From Eubacteriales bacterium (GTDB taxonomy: Bacteria; Bacillota; Clostridia; Lachnospirales; Lachnospiraceae): a stretch of 36,924 nt of DNA. The notes beneath the pieces were generated by a model. That model searched no databases, was not told where the DNA came from, and worked only from the letters and a program-made list of their open reading frames with translations. The stretch spans positions 1-36,924 of the forward strand of contig JAUNPK010000024.1 in the NCBI GenBank assembly GCA_030536855.1. The letters run 5' to 3'. Below, one piece after another: positions 424 through 13,785 of this stretch. Numbering within the stretch: the stretch's first letter is position 1; the number at the start of each line of letters is the position of its first letter. The position numbers and the translations under genes are program-made.

Positions 424-1065
424 ATGGGCGAGAAATTTACCAGCCGGGTAGGCTATTTGATTCGTAATTTCAGAATTGCATCTGATATGACGCAAAAGGA
501 ATTAGCAGATAAATGTGGATTAAACGAATCCACCATCCGAAACTATGAGCTTGGAAACAGATATCCGGATGAAACAACTTTATTAAATATTGCAAACAAT
601 CTGGGGGTCAGCTTTTATGCATTATCTGACCCTGATGTTGCCAATTTGTTCAGTGCACTTCATGTACTGTTTGACATTGAATGGGCATACGGACTGCGAC
701 CTACTATGAAAGATGGAGAAGTATGCTTCAAATTTGAAGAGCGACTTCCAAGTGCCGCTCCCCGTCCACAGGAAGACCTTGATAACTTCCGAAAGATGGT
801 TGAATATTGGGCAAGTTTACGAGACAAGCTGGAAGATGATGAAATATCAGAAACGGAATACTATCTTAAAGAGGTAAAGTACCCAATGAATCCAACAGAC
901 CCGAATAAAGAGTACACTGTTTCGTTGAATCTTGATGATGACGACCAGCTACTTATTCAGAATATGGATAAAGATGACAATGCAGAAGAAACTGCTGAAT
1001 TGTTAAAAGACTTGTTTCCGGATTTCTCTTATGTGAAGAGAAAACGGAAACCGAAGAAGGAATAG
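424..1065 (+). CDS. XRE-family helix-turn-helix transcriptional regulator
   Basis: A 213-residue protein with an N-terminal XRE/HTH_3 domain at about residues 8-65. The recognition segment is visible as TQKELADKCGLNESTIRNYE, followed by the usual GNRYPDETTLLNIANNLGV helix. Residues 70-200 are acidic and not recognised as an enzyme domain; they may mediate dimerisation or ligand sensing. The tail is very basic (KRKRKPKK). The start is supported by AAGGAG at 410-415, 8 bases before ATG. It is the first gene of a three-gene plus-strand cassette (33 bp to the next gene) and follows three operator-like repeats and a long structured leader. It probably represses or activates its own cassette. Regulators of this type are common in mobile and defence loci. 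The HTH call is firm; the regulon is inferred. Confidence 0.85.
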   Translation: MGEKFTSRVGYLIRNFRIASDMTQKELADKCGLNESTIRNYELGNRYPDETTLLNIANNLGVSFYALSDPDVANLFSALHVLFDIEWAYGLRPTMKDGEVCFKFEERLPSAAPRPQEDLDNFRKMVEYWASLRDKLEDDEISETEYYLKEVKYPMNPTDPNKEYTVSLNLDDDDQLLIQNMDKDDNAEETAELLKDLFPDFSYVKRKRKPKKE

Positions 1066-1098
1066 CTTAACCATAATCACATGAAAGGATTTATTATT

Positions 1099-1986
1099 AT
1101 GAGAAGATTTATATATTTAGATACTGATACCCTTAATTCATATATTGCACAAATATATGATGGTTTAGTGCAAACACAAGAAACAGAGACTCAATCCAGT
1201 CAAGCAACTGATAAGCAATCTGAACGGACATCTAACTTAGGAGCAGATGCAGACTTAAAAGTATTTGGAAAAGGCATTGAAGGCAAAATGGATTTTACAT
1301 ATCGCCATTTAAAAGATACCTCTAACACAGAACTTATTAGTGATGTTCAGACTAAGCTTTTACATGACAACGCATTCGATCAACTCATGAATTATTTAAA
1401 CAAGAACGAGCATTTATCAAATCACAATATTGGTGACTTTATAGAAATCAATGACGAATTTTATATTATGGATTTAGACTATTATAAAAATATTTTTAAC
1501 GACAAAAAATTTCTGGATTTTATGAAGAAAAGCGAACGCGACAAAATACAAACTTTACTTAAAATACAACAAGATATTGAATTAGTTCAAGAAGGTGCTA
1601 ATTCTAATGAAATCAAGAAAAACTATACTAATCTTGCCAAAAGCAAATGTGCAGAATCTGATAAAAGCTATGATGATATAAAGGACATAATTGATATGCT
1701 TTGCACACTTGTTCCATATCGAAGAACCTTATGTATTGCAGATAATATGGTTGTGCTAAATGACAAATATATGCGTGATAACATTAATATGACATCTTTT
1801 AAATTCGGTGGAAAAATCAAAGTTCTTGGATACATCACTAACAAAATAACAACAGATACTAATGATAGTACAAATGTTTCTCCATTAGCTCAAGTTGGCA
1901 TAGGTTTGAACCAAATTATGCTTTCATTTTTCGGTCAACAACCATCCTTAAATATTGTCCACCCTATTGCAATATACTACGAATAA
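1099..1986 (+). CDS. DUF6414-like protein of unknown function
   Basis: About 295 residues. The N-terminus (MRRFIYLDTDTLNSYIAQI) resembles the YLD...LNSYxAQ signature I associate with DUF6414 proteins. A Gln/Thr/Ser-rich linker follows (roughly residues 24-48), then a mixed alpha/beta region and a C-terminal segment with KFGGKIKVLGYITNKI ending in HPIAIYYE. There is no signal peptide and no transmembrane segment, so it is likely cytosolic. I chose the second ATG because AAAGGA (1084-1089) lies 9 bases before it; an in-frame ATG at 1081 has no good RBS. It sits between the XRE gene and a membrane protein whose start is only 15 bp downstream, so it is almost certainly co-transcribed. No catalytic motif is evident. 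The family call is from memory and moderate; the function is unknown. Confidence 0.6.
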   Translation: MRRFIYLDTDTLNSYIAQIYDGLVQTQETETQSSQATDKQSERTSNLGADADLKVFGKGIEGKMDFTYRHLKDTSNTELISDVQTKLLHDNAFDQLMNYLNKNEHLSNHNIGDFIEINDEFYIMDLDYYKNIFNDKKFLDFMKKSERDKIQTLLKIQQDIELVQEGANSNEIKKNYTNLAKSKCAESDKSYDDIKDIIDMLCTLVPYRRTLCIADNMVVLNDKYMRDNINMTSFKFGGKIKVLGYITNKITTDTNDSTNVSPLAQVGIGLNQIMLSFFGQQPSLNIVHPIAIYYE

Positions 1987-2001
1987 AAAGGAGTTATACA
2001 T

Positions 2002-2844
2002 ATGAAAAAAATACTATTCTATTTATTATTCGTTGCAACAATCATTCTCTTAATTGCTGCTCCCTTTTTAATTGAGAAAATAATCTTATGTGAAGATATT
2101 TTTCCTTTTAATATGCCAATAACCTTTTCAAAAGAAACATGGTTTGGATTTATTGCATCTTATTTAGGAGCAATAGGCACAGTCTCATTAGGCATCATAG
2201 CACTATATCAAAACAAAAAATATAAAGAACTTTCTGACTCTTCTGAAGAAAGATTATTAACACTTCAAACCGAAATTAAAAATTTAACTGAAAAGAATGT
2301 TGCATTAATTGAACTCAATTCAAAAATTGAGAGAGCTAAATATTTTCCTATTCTCACAAATGCACATCACTCTTACTGGGATATGAGCAAAGCAAATGCC
2401 AAAAGCTCTTTTGATTTTGAAAATGATGCATTCGTTTTTTCATATAAGAACATCAGTCCGGAAGAAATCCCTAATACTTTAATTGATATATTCAATCAAT
2501 ATCATACATTTGTTTACACATTAAAGAATGATGGTGAGCGGACAATACGAAATTTTTCTTGCACTTCTGTAACTCAAAACAAACAATTACATGAACATGG
2601 TTTTTGGTTTTGCCAAACATGTGATATTGAACCCGGGGCAATTTTGCGATGTGTATATGTGACGAAATTTAATCTTGCAGAGCAATGCAAAAATGGTGAA
2701 ATCGAATCACTTTCTTTTAAATACGAAATGGAAAATGTAATAGGCGAACGTTTCGAAATGGCTACAGACCTACATTTCATTCCTTCTGGCAAAAATGCGG
2801 CTCCTGATTATATGATGGAGATTACACCTATTCATCGAGTATAA
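2002..2844 (+). CDS. Two-TM membrane protein with coiled coil and C-terminal cytosolic domain
   Basis: A 280-residue protein I do not recognise. It has a hydrophobic helix at residues 4-25 and another around 48-70 (WFGFIASYLGAIGTVSLGII). A basic, then heptad-like helical stretch at 74-112 suggests a coiled coil. A soluble region of about 165 residues follows, with several aromatic residues and a few cysteines. Both ends are predicted inside the cell. AAGGAG ends 9 bases before the ATG, and the gene follows the DUF6414-like gene by 15 bp, making it the last gene of the cassette. Short two-TM anchors followed by a coiled coil and a cytosolic domain are frequent in phage-defence effectors and in poorly described accessory loci. 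A membrane-effector role is therefore possible but unproven. Confidence 0.65.
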   Translation: MKKILFYLLFVATIILLIAAPFLIEKIILCEDIFPFNMPITFSKETWFGFIASYLGAIGTVSLGIIALYQNKKYKELSDSSEERLLTLQTEIKNLTEKNVALIELNSKIERAKYFPILTNAHHSYWDMSKANAKSSFDFENDAFVFSYKNISPEEIPNTLIDIFNQYHTFVYTLKNDGERTIRNFSCTSVTQNKQLHEHGFWFCQTCDIEPGAILRCVYVTKFNLAEQCKNGEIESLSFKYEMENVIGERFEMATDLHFIPSGKNAAPDYMMEITPIHRV

Positions 2845-2883
2845 AACTTCTTATTGTCATTTGATTGTCATACAACCAAAAAC

Positions 2884-2921
2884 GAGCCAAGAAACGCCGT
2901 AAATTCGGCATTTCTTGGCTC
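2884..2921 (-). terminator. Rho-independent terminator, probably originally for guaA
   Basis: GAGCCAAGAAA (2884-2894) pairs with TTTCTTGGCTC (2911-2921), with an inner GCCG/CGGC stem. Read leftward, the hairpin is followed by GTTTTTGG, a short T-tract. It faces guaA but now lies about 310 bp beyond the guaA stop, with a MITE-like element between. The hairpin may also stop plus-strand transcription from the cassette. Confidence 0.65.
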
Positions 2922-3226
2922 ATGTTGTTATAGGGCAAACGCTTTTATCCTCAAAAGGCAAAAATGTTTATCCTCCACATCCTAACCAAATCATCTGTGA
3001 TTAAGCTTAATATATCCATGTTATTTTTAGAGATACCACTATAAGCGATAACCTCTGAAACACTGTATTTACAAGGCGAAACACCTGAATGATAGAATGA
3101 AAAATGACCTTGACGATAGCCCTTTAAAGGCTATGAATCAAGGTCATTTAACTTTCTTTTATTCATTTGTTGAGGCTAAACATTTTTGCCCTTTCAGACT
3201 AAATTGCTTTGCCCTATAACAACATG
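2921..3226. mobile_element. MITE-like element with two-part terminal inverted repeats
   Basis: The outer 19-bp repeats are perfect: CATGTTGTTATAGGGCAAA at 2921-2939 and its complement at 3208-3226. A second perfect 14-bp pair lies inside (2957-2970 and 3177-3190). The 306-bp element contains no convincing gene. Its interior holds a strong hairpin: AAATGACCTTG 3102-3112 with CAAGGTCATTT 3139-3149, and TAGCC/GGCTA within. It ends 4 bp from the guaA stop. No clear target duplication is visible. It is best explained as a non-autonomous element or an IS reduced to its ends; the parent family is not identified. This covers most of the non-coding stretch 2845-3230. Confidence 0.65.
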
Positions 3227-3230
3227 TACA

Positions 3231-4775
3231 CTATTCAAACTCAATCGTTCCTGGTGGCTTGCTGGTCAGATCATAGAATACTCTGTTCACGCCCCTGACT
3301 TCGTTAATGATTCTGCTCATGACTGTCTGGAGAACTGAGAATGGTATCTCAGCGCTTTCTGCCGTCATGAAGTCTATGGTGTTGACAGCTCTCAGGGCAA
3401 CTGCGTAATCGTAAGTTCTCTCATCTCCCATTACGCCAACAGAACGCATATTGGTAAGAGCTGCGAAATACTGCCCTATGCTTCTGTCAAGACCGGCCTT
3501 TGCAATCTCCTCACGGTATATTGCATCCGCATCCTGTACAATTCTGACCTTCTCTGCAGTAACTTCACCAATAATTCTGATTCCAAGTCCCGGACCCGGA
3601 AATGGCTGACGGAACACAAGGTGTTCAGGAATACCAAGTTCAAGACCAGCTTTACGAACCTCATCTTTGAACAAGTCACGGAGAGGTTCTATGATTTCTT
3701 TAAAATCTACATAGTCAGGAAGCCCACCAACATTATGGTGTGACTTAATAACTGCTGACTCGCCTCCCAGTCCGCTCTCAACTACATCCGGATATATTGT
3801 TCCCTGGGCAAGAAAATCTACCGCTCCAATTTTCTTGGCCTCTTCTTCAAATACTCTTATGAACTCTTCTCCGATTATTTTTCTCTTCTTTTCAGGCTCT
3901 GTTACTCCTGCAAGCTTTTCGTAATATCTGTCCTGTGCATTGACTCTGATAAAATTAAGGTCAAACTGTCCGTTAGGTCCGAATACACTTTCCACCTCGT
4001 CTCCCTCATTTTTACGAAGAAGACCGTGGTCAACAAATACGCAGGTAAGCTGTTTTCCGATAGCTCTTGATAAAAGTCCTGCTGCCACTGATGAATCAAC
4101 TCCACCCGAAAGAGCAAGCAGTACCTTCCCATCTCCTACCTTCTCACGGATTTCCTTTATGGTATTCTCCACAAATGCATCCATTTTCCATGTTCCGGAA
4201 CATCCGCACACATTTCTTACAAAGTTGAAAAGCATCTTTGTACCTTCCTGAGTGTGAAGTACCTCCGGATGAAACTGTATTGCATACAAATTCTTATCTT
4301 TATTTTCTGCTGCTGCCACAGGGCAGTCTGCTGTATGGGCAATAATCTTAAATCCGCCAGCGACCTGTGAAATGTAGTCAAAGTGGCTCATCCATACAAT
4401 GGTATTCTCTGAAACATCGCCAAATAACGCACTGCTCTTATCAACAAATGTTTCTGTCTTACCATACTCTCTTACAGGTGCCTTCTCTACCTTTCCTCCA
4501 AGCACGTGCATCATAAGCTGTGCACCGTAACACAATCCAAGAACAGGTATTCCAAGTTCGAACAACTCCTTTGTGTAAGTAGGAGCTCCTTCCTCATAAC
4601 AGCTGTTAGGACCGCCTGTAAGAATGATTCCCTTAGGATTCATTGCTTTTATCTGTTCAATGTCAGTCTTGTATGAATATATCTCACAATATACGTTGCA
4701 CTCACGTACACGTCTTGCTACAAGCTGATTGTACTGTCCGCCGAAATCAATGACGATAACTTTTTCCTGATTCAC
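3231..4775 (-). CDS. guaA: GMP synthase (glutamine-hydrolysing)
   Basis: Converts XMP to GMP using ATP and glutamine, the last step of guanine nucleotide synthesis. It is a full-length two-domain protein of about 514 residues. The N-terminal class I amidotransferase has GLCYGAQ (nucleophile Cys) and the QFHPEV His/Glu pair. The ATP-pyrophosphatase domain has the P-loop SGGVDSS, and the C-terminal dimerisation domain ends in [11 protein letters not shown] place the start at a GTG (4773-4775) preceded by AGAGGTAAGG; an upstream in-frame TTG at 4820 has no RBS. A consensus promoter lies upstream and no purine riboswitch fold is visible. The 3' end of guaA is a known integration site for genomic islands, which fits the accessory cassette directly beyond it. 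Confidence 0.97.
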
Positions 4776-4846
4776 GACCTTACCTCTTTCCGCGTATAAC
4801 GCTAGTATATAATTAATCAAATGTTTCTGTTTTGAATTACCACTCC

Positions 4847-9366: not shown

Positions 9367-11355
9367 TTATTTATTCTCATAAATGTATTTGTTGATTTCT
9401 ATCATCTTATCTCTTAAGGCTGCTGCCTCCTCAAAATCAAGCTCAGCGGCAGCTTTACGCATATTTTTCTCAATCTGCTTCTTAACCTTTTCAAGCTCCT
9501 TTATGTCCATAGACTCATAATCCACCTTCAGACTAACGCCTCCACTGTCAGGATCCGCTGCTCTGCTTATACTAATAAGCTCCCTTACAGCTTTCTTTAT
9601 AGTCTGTGGTGTAATTCCATGCTCATCATTGTAAGCCTGCTGGATTTTACGACGTCTTTCCGTCTCTGATATGGCCTTTTCCATGGACTCTGTTATGGTA
9701 TCTCCATACATAATAACACGTCCCTCTGCATTTCTTGCAGCTCGTCCTATGGTCTGGATAAGAGAAGTCTCCGTTCTTAAAAATCCTTCCTTATCCGCAT
9801 CAAGTATGGCAACCAGGCTAATCTCAGGAATGTCAAGTCCCTCTCTCAAAAGATTGATACCCACAAGAACATCAAATCCATCCAGTCTCATATCTCTGAT
9901 TATCTTCTGTCTTTCAAGTGTATCAATATCTGCGTGGAGATACTTTACCCTGATTCCCACCTCTTTGAGATATTCTGTAAGATCCTCAGCCATTCTTTTT
10001 GTAAGTGTTGTAACAAGTACTTTATTCTTATTGGCTGTCTCTTTATTAATTTCTGATATTAAATCATCTATCTGGCCTTCTATCGGACGTACGGAAATTT
10101 CAGGGTCCAGAAGACCTGTAGGACGAATAACCTGTTCGGCCCTCAATAATTCGTGCTCCGCCTCATAGGTACTTGGTGTTGCTGAAACAAAGAGCATCTG
10201 GGAAATTTTATTTTCAAATTCCGTAAAATTTAACGGTCTGTTGTCCTTGGCAGAAGGGAGTCTGAATCCGTAATCAACCAAAGTTGTCTTTCTTGACTGA
10301 TCCCCTGCATACATTCCCCTGACCTGAGGAATTGTTATGTGGGACTCATCCACAATAATAAGAAAATCATCCGGAAAATAATCCATCAGAGTGTAGGGTG
10401 GGCTGCCTGCCGGAAGTCCTGCCAAATGTCTTGAATAATTCTCTATTCCCGAACAAAATCCCGTCTCCTGCATCATCTCTATATCAAAATTAGTCCGTTC
10501 CTCAATTCTCTGGGCCTCTAACAGCTTATCCTCACCTTTGAAATATTTTATTCTCTCAGCCAGTTCAGCTTTAATATTCTCTATGGCAGCATCCATCTTT
10601 TCCTTGTCCACAACATAATGTGAATTGGGAAATATTGCTATATGGTCTAAAACACATAGCACCTCACCTGTAAGAGAATCTATCTCACTTAATCTGTCAA
10701 TCTCATCCCCAAAAAATTCAACTCTTATGGCATTTCCGCTAGAATCGGATGGATATATTTCCACCACATCTCCTCTCACCCGGAATGTGCCTCTTTTAAA
10801 ATCCTGTTCGTTGCGTACATATTGGATATCTATGAGCTTTCTTATCATCTCATCTCTATCCTTCTCCATCCCCGGTCTTAGCGAAATAACCATATTCTTA
10901 TAATCTATCGGGGCACCCAATCCGTAAATGCAAGATACAGACGCCACAATTATAACGTCATTTCTCTCCGATAATGCAGCTGTGGCAGAATGTCTTAATT
11001 TATCAATTTCATCATTTATAGAGGAATCCTTTGCAATATAGGTATCACTCTGTGGCACATATGCTTCCGGCTGATAATAATCATAGTAGGACACAAAGTA
11101 CTCTACTGCATTTTCGGGGAAAAATTCCTTCATCTCCGAATAAAGCTGTGCAGCCAATGTTTTATTGTGAGAGATTATCAATGTAGGCTTCTGTACATTT
11201 TGTATAATATTAGCCATTGTAAATGTCTTTCCCGAACCCGTTACACCTACAAGTGTTTCAAACTGATTTCCTTCAAGAAATCCCTTAGACAACTCCTTTA
11301 TTGCCTGAGGCTGGTCTCCTGTTGGCTGGTATGGAGAGTGCAATTTAAATTCCAT
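9367..11355 (-). CDS. uvrB: Excinuclease ABC subunit UvrB
   Basis: The damage-verifying helicase-like subunit that recruits UvrC. It is full length (662 residues). Motifs are Walker A GVTGSGKT, the beta-hairpin segment [20 protein letters not shown] that probes the strand, the DEAD-like box IIVDESH, the motif V-VI region [13 protein letters not shown], and QTIGRAARN. The C-terminal UVR domain is [20 protein letters not shown], the UvrA/UvrC contact. It starts at ATG 11353-11355 with AAGGAAG about 5 bases upstream. It is followed directly by uvrA and preceded by an unrelated membrane protein gene 86 bp upstream. Confidence 0.98.
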
Positions 11356-11441
11356 TTTTCATCTTCCTTCTTATTCTTTATAATAAAATAACCTGTAATC
11401 CACGTTTTTTAATTAGGATTCTCCGCTTTTTGACGCATTAT

Positions 11442-12209
11442 TTAAATTTTTTTACGCATCCCTTTAATCACAATAAGCAAAAATGCTCCACCTGCAATGA
11501 TAACAACAGCGGGTATAATAATAAATATTCCTTTAACTATGCCAAGGAACAAAAATCCCAACAGCACAACAACATCCCCGATTACTATTTTTACAATATT
11601 AGAAATATGGGGACTATGGGCGTTTGTCTTTTTTGCCGTAATTACAGAATCATATATCCCTCCTGCAAATACTACCGCCCCTATTAAAGTAAGAATAACA
11701 AGAACCACATTTGCAACAGAAAAATCCGACTTGTCAACGCCTAAAAATCCCACGCTCAATATCATAATGCCCGTGCCCATAATATATTTGGCATATCTCG
11801 GCATTAAAATACCCACAGCAATAAGACCTAAAGACACTCCTACAATCATAAGAATTACGCCTGTATCCCTGTCTTTTCCGCTACTGGCTTCCTGTGGATT
11901 CTCAGGGTTATAATAAATGGTCTGTCCCTTACCTGTCTTTGGCAAAGAACTGGAATATGAGTCCTCCGATACAGTATACGTTACACCATCCACTTCATAA
12001 GAGTATCTGGCGCAATATGAAGTGTTGTCATCCTCACTCTTACTGTCATAATCATATACATAGCCGGTTGTCCTCTCATAAGATGCGTACTTATATCTTA
12101 CAGATGCCACCTTATATGTTCCGAATCCCACCATAAGCACACAGCATCCAAGCCATATTATGAATAATATACCCATGTATCCTACCCTGTTCTTTGATTT
12201 TTCCTGCAT
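11442..12209 (-). CDS. DUF3592-like membrane protein
   Basis: A 255-residue integral membrane protein of unknown function. It has a TM helix at about residues 10-30, then an external beta-rich region (31-105). That region carries the DUF3592-type pattern YSYEVDGVTYT...GKGQTIYYNPENPQEA. About five further hydrophobic helices follow from residue 112 on, and the C-terminus is basic. It lies between the S41 protease and uvrB in the minus-strand gene train, with a terminator (12345-12378) upstream of it, so it probably has its own promoter in 12210-12340. The domain call is reasonably good; no enzyme residues are visible. Confidence 0.75.
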   Translation of the reverse strand: MQEKSKNRVGYMGILFIIWLGCCVLMVGFGTYKVASVRYKYASYERTTGYVYDYDSKSEDDNTSYCARYSYEVDGVTYTVSEDSYSSSLPKTGKGQTIYYNPENPQEASSGKDRDTGVILMIVGVSLGLIAVGILMPRYAKYIMGTGIMILSVGFLGVDKSDFSVANVVLVILTLIGAVVFAGGIYDSVITAKKTNAHSPHISNIVKIVIGDVVVLLGFLFLGIVKGIFIIIPAVVIIAGGAFLLIVIKGMRKKI

Positions 12210-12344
12210 ATAACCTCATTCCTCTTTCCAAATAACCTATGTTACTCTGACTAAAATCCCCTCTGTTAAGGCAAGCTTTCTAAGCAAAATCATAATTAAA
12301 ATTATAATCTCCACTTTGTTCGATTATACCATTATATAAAAGAA

Positions 12345-12378
12345 AAGTACAGAACAAGCAAACACCTGTTCTGTACTT
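12345..12378 (-). terminator. Terminator after the S41 protease gene
   Basis: AAGTACAGAACA (12345-12356) pairs perfectly with TGTTCTGTACTT (12367-12378). Read leftward, it is followed by TTTTCTTTTA. It closes the ftsE-ftsX-M23-S41 gene train. Confidence 0.85.
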
Positions 12379-12402
12379 ATTTGTACCACATTTTTTTGAT
12401 TT

Positions 12403-13785
12403 TTAAATCTTTTTCTTGATATCTTCTATGGCTGCATTAAGCTGGTTATCTTCCTCCCCATTGTCATTAAGCTCCACTACCACATTAGGAGTTACGCCTT
12501 TGCCATGAATATCCTGACCTTTAGGAGTAAAATACTTCGCAATAGTAAATTTTACCGCACTTCCATCAGTAAGAGGTTTTATTGTCTGAACTATACCTTT
12601 GCCAAATGTCTGTGTTCCGATTATTGTTCCTTTTTCGTAATCCTGAACAGCACCTGCAAATATCTCCGATGCACTGGCACTATTCCCATTAACTAGCACT
12701 GCCATAGGAACATTTAGTTCATTGTCATCATTTCCCTTATATTCCCTTTTATTGCCGTCCTTATCCTGAGTGTAAACTATTAGTCCCTTAGGAAGGATAT
12801 AATCGAGCATATCTACAACCGTAGAGAGTAATCCTCCCGGATTACTTCTTATATCAATCACCAGTCCTTTCATACCCTGGTTTGTCAAATCCGCTACAGC
12901 CGACTTAAACTGTGCTGTCGTAACCTCTTCAAATTGGAGAATAGATATATATCCGATATTATTTTCCATCATCTCATAGGATACCGTTTTAACCTGCACC
13001 TCATCCCTTGTTACAGTAAAGCTTAAAGTTTCACTTCCACGAATCAGCTGAAGATTAACTGTTGTACCTTTTTCTCCCTTAATCATGGCAACAGCTGAAG
13101 ACAAATCTTTATCTTTGATATCAGTACCATCAACTTTTATTATCCTGTCTCCTACTCTGAGTCCTGCCTTATATCCCGAGCATTCCTCATATATATCAAC
13201 AACAAGTATTCCGCCTTCATCACTTTTCTGGCACACAGCACCTATACCATAAAATTTACCTGTAGTGGATTCAACCAGTAACTTGTATTCTTCAGGGGTG
13301 TAATAAACAGTATATTTATCACCGTAAGAATCTATATATGCTTTATATATTTTTTCTGCAGTTTCCTGGTCATCTACATCATCAAAATAAAATGAATCCA
13401 ACAGTGAATCTATAGAATTAAGTTTGGATTCCACCCGGCTTCCGATTCCATCTTCATCTGTAACCGGATCCGATTGAACATATACTTCCCCATTAATTCC
13501 AATGTGAATATATCCTGACTTAATTAATGATAAGAGTACTGTTGACAGGATAAGTATCAGAGCCAATCCTCCGGAAATAATACCTACAAGCAGTCCTATA
13601 CCAAAGCCCGCTCTCTTCTTATTTCTTCTGCCACTGTTGGAACCATTTCCAACATTCCAACCATTCCCAACATTCCTGTTGTTTTGGTAATACCCATTGT
13701 TATCACTGTTGCCATTATTCCAATTGCTTCCACCGTATGGGGAATTCATCTGATTGTACACATTGTTACCATAATCTCCATTCAT
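12403..13785 (-). CDS. S41 family C-terminal processing peptidase (CtpA/Prc type)
   Basis: A membrane-anchored serine protease of 460 residues. Residues 1-56 are an Asn/Gly/Tyr-rich cytoplasmic tail. A TM helix spans about 60-88, a PDZ domain 170-262 and the S41 catalytic domain 270-445. The Ser/Lys dyad is Ser371 in NGNSASASEIF and Lys396 in TFGKGIVQT, with the usual 25-residue spacing. These enzymes trim or degrade exported proteins, often cell-wall hydrolases or their regulators. It lies 30 bp downstream of the M23 endopeptidase gene, which follows ftsX, so a role in controlling FtsEX-dependent wall cleavage is plausible but inferred. The low-complexity N-terminus is unusually long for the family. 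Confidence 0.93.
   Translation of the reverse strand: MNGDYGNNVYNQMNSPYGGSNWNNGNSDNNGYYQNNRNVGNGWNVGNGSNSGRRNKKRAGFGIGLLVGIISGGLALILILSTVLLSLIKSGYIHIGINGEVYVQSDPVTDEDGIGSRVESKLNSIDSLLDSFYFDDVDDQETAEKIYKAYIDSYGDKYTVYYTPEEYKLLVESTTGKFYGIGAVCQKSDEGGILVVDIYEECSGYKAGLRVGDRIIKVDGTDIKDKDLSSAVAMIKGEKGTTVNLQLIRGSETLSFTVTRDEVQVKTVSYEMMENNIGYISILQFEEVTTAQFKSAVADLTNQGMKGLVIDIRSNPGGLLSTVVDMLDYILPKGLIVYTQDKDGNKREYKGNDDNELNVPMAVLVNGNSASASEIFAGAVQDYEKGTIIGTQTFGKGIVQTIKPLTDGSAVKFTIAKYFTPKGQDIHGKGVTPNVVVELNDNGEEDNQLNAAIEDIKKKI

Follow-up and report, generated by a model that had tools for sequence, protein, structure and literature searches.

Mobilizable elements (IMEs) residing in guaA are known from streptococci (PMC5357655, PMC12479173), those of PMC5357655 having tyrosine integrases, named Tyr_3. 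P2-like phages and P4-like satellites, as portrayed in the available part of PMC9122126, have hotspots in which a fixed position of the backbone holds varying anti-phage genes. Among defence systems, Dodola pairs DolA, a DUF6414 protein, with the ClpB-like DolB, and its mechanism is listed as unknown in the accessible text of a 2025 survey (PMC12322248). Reported effects of Dodola are activity against a Bacillus phage and broad protection in S. thermophilus (PMC11514479, PMC12322248), the broad protection being that of PMC12322248; in the tests that PMC11514479 itself presents, lone systems including Dodola only minimally affected the phages under test. The same paper gives Clp-like structure matches to DolA, contrary to the PADLOC naming used here. 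Short two-TM effectors are found in SLATT loci and, as PycTM, in Pycsar.

We analysed a stretch of 36,924 nucleotides (the window) that forms one entire contig, G000:C45; other genomes are given G numbers and loci L numbers. The part from about 54 to 2925, or up to 3226 with an insert of 306 nt, is likely to be the right-hand portion of an IME that is integrated at guaA and carries exchangeable cargo of putative anti-phage function. The arrangement is like that of the P2 and P4 hotspots described in PMC9122126, except that the carrier is an IME, found mainly in Lachnospiraceae, whose slot lies right behind an XRE gene at the guaA end. Its family shares with the streptococcal elements of PMC5357655 and PMC12479173 the mobilizable type and the place in guaA, and with those of PMC5357655 a tyrosine integrase; it occurs in another host family and has an exchange slot headed by an XRE gene. 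No account of the present element was found in the literature searched (guaA, Lachnospiraceae, integrative element; defence hotspots), nor any mention of DUF6414 by name.

The locus and its backbone

Three ORFs lie on the plus strand, separated by 33 and 15 nt: gene 1 (424–1065), gene 2 (1099–1986, its frame being open also from 1081) and gene 3 (2002–2844). The first-pass annotation had reported this number, strand and spacing, all borne out by the ORF coordinates, and had named the products as an XRE regulator, a DUF6414-like protein and a two-TM coiled-coil protein. These names agree with an HTH_3 match for gene 1 (Pfam, E = 8.1e-13), a match of gene 2 residues 1–258 to PF19952, DUF6414 (2.9e-25; 90 bits against a cut-off of 25), which places it in that family, and the structure model of gene 3. 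An Rfam scan of the window gave a tRNA as its sole match.

The same annotation had placed the genes between an IS end and a MITE-like element. A repeat end does occupy 1–53, which is also the contig edge, and the segment 1–55 has four matches in the genome, counting itself and the opposite contig end (36855–36909), the two further matches being partial. Repeat copies at contig ends are expected when an insertion sequence breaks an assembly, and the repeat is therefore presumed to be an IS end, with no transposase seen for it. On the right, a MITE-like unit of 306 nt (2921–3226, with inverted-repeat arms at 2921–2979 and 3168–3226) is present in a single copy in its own genome. Both flanking units thus exist as described, the IS identity of the left one being presumptive. 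Beyond them lies a minus-strand gene (3231–4820) which, from its translation, we take to be guaA, encoding GMP synthase, the putative integration target.

A scan of genome contigs with gene 1 returned 34 loci, 20 of which (L133–L152) are 55–95% identical to it; these 20, the window and L076 make up the 22-locus set used throughout. Record titles of the gene 1 loci name mostly Lachnospiraceae or its members, the others being Oscillospiraceae, Eubacterium, Eubacteriales and Clostridia. By tblastn, gene 1 has integrase sequence beside it in 17 of the 22 loci (full length in nine), an excisionase-like gene in 19, relaxase sequence in ten and a NikA-like gene in eight. The five loci lacking integrase sequence comprise the window and L137, which have too little left arm, and L135, L143 and L146, for which ∼10 kb is covered. 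Among 12 distant relatives of gene 1, integrase sequence adjoins it in 11 (tblastn). The backbone copies of L134 and L138 contain the Pfam domains Arm-DNA-bind_4, Phage_int_SAM_3, Phage_integrase, NikA-like, TnpV and Mob_Pre. Comparison of these loci identifies gene 1 as a conserved gene of a predicted guaA-targeting IME family, mainly of Lachnospiraceae. No relatives of genes 1, 2 or 3 turned up in viral contigs, where the single-protein scans used are sensitive to close relatives only.

The left arms of related elements also bear restriction-modification genes. A DpnII endonuclease and N6 methylases are encoded at L138:1581–4084 and a C5 methylase at L134:3269–4561 (all by Pfam), and similar genes, judged by eye, occur at L140:256–3397 and L076:58–2295.

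Upstream of gene 1, three 20-nt palindromes without strand assignment (90–109, 129–148 and 167–186, starting 38–39 nt apart) recur in relatives and are putative operators. With up to four mismatches allowed, 19 of the 20 loci searched have at least one copy before gene 1 and 15 have three copies there, and the palindrome has a single match elsewhere across all 20 sequences. The palindromes and the divergent genes for excisionase and integrase together give the layout of an autoregulated repressor. Gene 1 may be the repressor of the element, binding the three palindromes and controlling the divergent genes; its transcript would read through into the cargo, which would then be expressed while the element is integrated. 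An inverted-repeat insertion of ∼145 nt (203–345, right boundary approximate, with arms at 203–214 and 316–327) sits between the palindromes and gene 1 in the window, L133, L135, L138 and partly L141, and is missing from other relatives such as L136, L139 and L142.

At the opposite side, comparison with relatives reveals a conserved right end (2845–2925, plus strand), a hairpin-bearing segment of about 70–75 nt next to the guaA stop codon. The last guaA codons (3231–3242) constitute a putative 12-nt attachment core, proposed because this sequence follows the right end in relatives both within and outside guaA. Among 20 right ends compared, guaA comes next in eight (L134, L137, L138, L139, L140, L144, L151 and the window, where the MITE-like insert intervenes), and the core is followed by other DNA in six (exact in L076, L135, L136 and L142, with one difference in L133 and three in L152). 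Looser variants of the core follow the right end in L143 and L145, a different short end sequence precedes guaA in L146, L147 and L150, and L117 reaches the contig end. The conserved end and target core expected of an IME are thus both present, the window copy being interrupted by the MITE-like insert.

A search allowing one mismatch located an exact second core in L142, 6.1 kb to the left of gene 1, which delimits a candidate element of about 7.5 kb, and one-mismatch second cores lie left of gene 1 in L134 and L149. The other 19 of the 22 loci, several of which have short left arms, have none within this limit, and a stricter 22-nt probe gave no match.

Other genomes of the genus to which the window belongs (L173, L174, L175, L176, L179 and L184) have different sequences abutting the guaA stop codon, some of them hairpin-bearing by eye, with eight of 21 junctions located. 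Such variety suggests that guaA may serve several kinds of element.

An exchange slot behind gene 1

The extent of similarity between loci defines an exchange slot that runs from the gene 1 stop codon to the conserved right end. The window is 94.6% identical to L133 and 93.3% identical to L138 over 54–1064, that is, up to the gene 1 stop codon, where conservation with L147 ends as well. Past gene 1, both L133 and L138 match only at 2851–2925, with L138 also matching the guaA end. Identity to L076, in another genome, is 93.6% over 354–2005, reaching the start of gene 3 and beyond chance; a gap follows, and then 94.7% identity over 2851–2925. L147 has a homologous gene 3 (72% over 2044–2922) and lacks gene 2. 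These comparisons reveal a mosaic in which a header of three palindromes and gene 1, the slot, the right end and the 12-nt core can be recognized as a common plan, at the level of sequence, with the mobile backbone visible in relatives.

Across the 22 loci the slot contains 39 ORFs of at least 45 amino acids in 27 blastp clusters. The ORF picker can miss overlapping ORFs, some of those listed may not be genes, and contig ends truncate the slots of L141 and L149. The slot can apparently also be empty: guaA begins 131–237 nt after gene 1, with no same-strand ORF of 60 amino acids between them, in nine of the 12 distant relatives examined (out of 14 distant gene 1 loci), these nine being two strains of Oribacterium and seven further records of Lachnospiraceae. 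The remaining three are L157, which stops at a contig edge, and L161 and L166, which bear other genes after gene 1. We use the word hotspot for this slot as a descriptive term, implying no comparison of rates.

The three genes of the window were originally viewed as one cassette, and their compact operon with an XRE regulator would fit a locus of regulator-toxin-antitoxin style independent of any mobile element. This is very improbable, however, as gene 1 leads into ORFs of 27 clusters over the 22 loci and adjoins integrase sequence in 17 of them, its phyletic pattern is unlike that of genes 2 and 3, and the exchange of cargo already contradicts such a unit. Gene 1 is instead part of the element backbone and has unrelated cargo elsewhere, so the proposal of a single three-gene system fails. 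The accompanying view of an accessory, horizontally mobile and defence-like setting has held up, as some relatives have known defence modules at the same place.

Pfam and PADLOC scans covered genes 2 and 3 and a further 20 of the 39 cargo ORFs. Matches among these 20 include a DarT protein (6.6e-15) with NADAR-DarT1 (3.1e-94) in L138, Septu PtuA (2.2e-95) in L149, PDC-S29, an EcsC protein, in L139 (1e-80), and DUF4062 (5.8e-29) in L148. A kinase in L145 matches both mads_6 (2.8e-40) and PD-T4-6 (4.5e-38), the shared part being the kinase domain. Weak matches are to SIR2 (5e-5, L143) and PycTM (1.3e-4, L134), and toxin-immunity-like cargo is represented by Barstar (4.3e-10, L144) and a WapI-like protein (5.5e-14, L136). 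For nine of the 20 ORFs PADLOC gave nothing at E ≤ 0.1; one of these is the NADAR protein found by Pfam.

The Barstar and WapI-like proteins, the DarT-type toxin with NADAR and several small membrane proteins could indicate that the cargo acts mainly in stabilization of, or competition between, mobile elements, through addiction, exclusion or toxin immunity, and less in phage defence. We consider this rather unlikely, given that PtuA, PDC-S29 and the DolA-family matches belong to families catalogued as anti-phage, and that the left arm of L138 bears a DpnII restriction gene. An IME with cargo that would be directed at phages is the reading we prefer.

Two other cargo proteins stand out by their distribution or size. 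A multi-TM family of 225–256 amino acids occupies the final cargo position after first genes of several kinds (L076:9606–10292, L136, L146 and L152), with a further relative at L077:6290–6967; neither Pfam nor PADLOC gives a match at E ≤ 0.1 for the L076 copy, relatives of which occur in four of 299 family genomes, G235 itself counted. The slot of L150 encodes a protein of 683 amino acids (10648–12699), for which both Pfam and PADLOC likewise gave nothing at E ≤ 0.1.

Genes 2 and 3 as cargo modules

DUF6414 proteins (PF19952) occur in 29 of 397 family genomes at E ≤ 0.001, 26 of them over the cut-off. The alignment used here joins the window protein with 24 others, omitting L058 (overlap rule of the ORF picker), L067 (one in-frame stop), L078, L081, L082 and the weak matches L084–L087. 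Eleven of the 25 match the PADLOC model of DolA at E ≤ 1, the best at 2.4e-82, and two scanned downstream neighbours of DUF6414 genes match DolB (1.9e-126 and 5.8e-131); DUF6414 is therefore taken to be the family of DolA.

Gene 2 shares PF19952 with the DolA-matching proteins of Dodola but is unlike them in that it matches no PADLOC family, DolA included, at E ≤ 10, has no DolB neighbour and is followed by a two-TM gene. Genes 1 and 3 flank it, guaA lies beyond, and neither gene 1 nor gene 3 has a DolB match at E ≤ 10. When the profile of its branch was compared with that of the DolB-linked branch, only 32 N-terminal columns aligned, at a probability of 5.6%, so that it is the Pfam model that ties gene 2 to DolA. 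Gene 2 is thereby assigned to a divergent branch of the predicted DUF6414/DolA superfamily that lacks the DolB ATPase. Its relatives were absent from plasmids at 1e-5, and one phage record contains a relative with 33% identity.

Elsewhere, genes directly upstream of DUF6414 encode a MmeI-type IIG enzyme (L069), AlwI (L067), a type II methylase (L057), RloB (L064) and an IetS-like subtilase (L078), and Eco47II (L079) and an HsdR-like helicase (L056) lie one to three genes away. These come from 28 loci viewed by eye, with ten proteins scanned that had been picked as defence-like or as DolB candidates; other loci, such as L061, L072 and L083, have ordinary-looking neighbours.

Gene 3 has no Pfam family over cut-off. 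Its structure model has helices at residues 2–29 and 44–112 followed by strands, and the protein is predicted to combine a two-TM anchor, a long helix and a C-terminal beta-sandwich. It thus resembles the SLATT and PycTM effectors in being short, with two TM segments and a helical extension, but differs by its beta-sandwich tail. Its score against SLATT_fungal (14.9 bits) falls below the cut-off of 26.5, which places it outside the SLATT family as modelled, and the weak PycTM match noted above belongs to the L134 cargo and not to gene 3. Unlike SLATT and Pycsar loci, moreover, this one has no cyclase, SMODS or SLOG gene in the two cargo neighbours of gene 3. Relatives of gene 3 occur in 11 of 397 family genomes at E ≤ 0.001, the nearest being 69% (G256) and 33% (G022) identical, both without a DUF6414 neighbour; none were found on plasmids at 0.01, and none in phages.

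The spacing of 15 nt on a common strand could mean that genes 2 and 3 form a two-component defence unit, with a DolA-like recognition subunit and a two-TM effector replacing the ClpB-like DolB. In L076 and L077 the relatives of gene 2 (94 and 66% identical) likewise lead, after 15 nt, into a different protein, a multi-TM one of 225–228 amino acids, which suggests a recurrent membrane partner for this branch. Around the L077 copy, 17 kb of sequence contain no relative of gene 1, and a recombinase-like ORF, judged by eye, lies ∼5 kb off. Yet genes 2 and 3 are found together in just one of the 397 family genomes, that of the window (G000); L147 and L046 have gene 3 but lack gene 2, and L076, L077, L151 and L063 have gene 2 but lack gene 3. 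A dedicated two-component unit is accordingly doubtful, and the distribution of the two genes marks them as what appear to be separate cargo modules of the slot.

The first-pass annotation had held that occurrence of genes 2 and 3 apart and in unrelated core contexts would speak against its reading. The first part is seen, the genes being apart in all of their 29 and 11 genomes except that of the window, but core contexts are not: several of the other contexts lie beside restriction or defence genes, the scanned neighbours having been chosen by eye and some loci having ordinary ones.

We infer a defence function for genes 2 and 3. They would have been brought together as cargo by recombination, with gene 2 acting as an anti-phage protein, as its DUF6414/DolA superfamily suggests, and gene 3 as its membrane-anchored partner or as an independent effector. 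A bolder possibility, offered tentatively, is that this DolA/DUF6414 branch works with interchangeable small membrane effectors in place of DolB, and that the guaA IME of gut Lachnospiraceae is a swap cassette that expresses such modules through the operon of its repressor.

State of the element and its wider meaning

Similarity of the window to L133, L135, L138, L076, L151 and L134 starts at base 54, which is the position of the start codon of the excisionase-like gene in relatives (gene start 9632 in L138). The repeat end therefore abuts that position, and the right end is interrupted in its last bases by the MITE-like insert. The 423-nt left arm of the window contains none of the integrase and mobilization genes present in relatives, and the best integrase match in the 54 contigs of its own genome is 45% over 107 residues. 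A stranded, immobile remnant, with cargo ORFs that are still open, is probably what this strain retains of the element.

For the family as a whole, gene 1 and the right end provide a simple two-sided anchor, by which the content of the slot can be read from any genome that has the element. The 39 ORFs, which fall into 27 clusters and in many cases lack a family name, are a source of candidate defence genes from gut anaerobes, and the branch of gene 2, which lacks the ATPase, offers a concrete route to the function of DUF6414.
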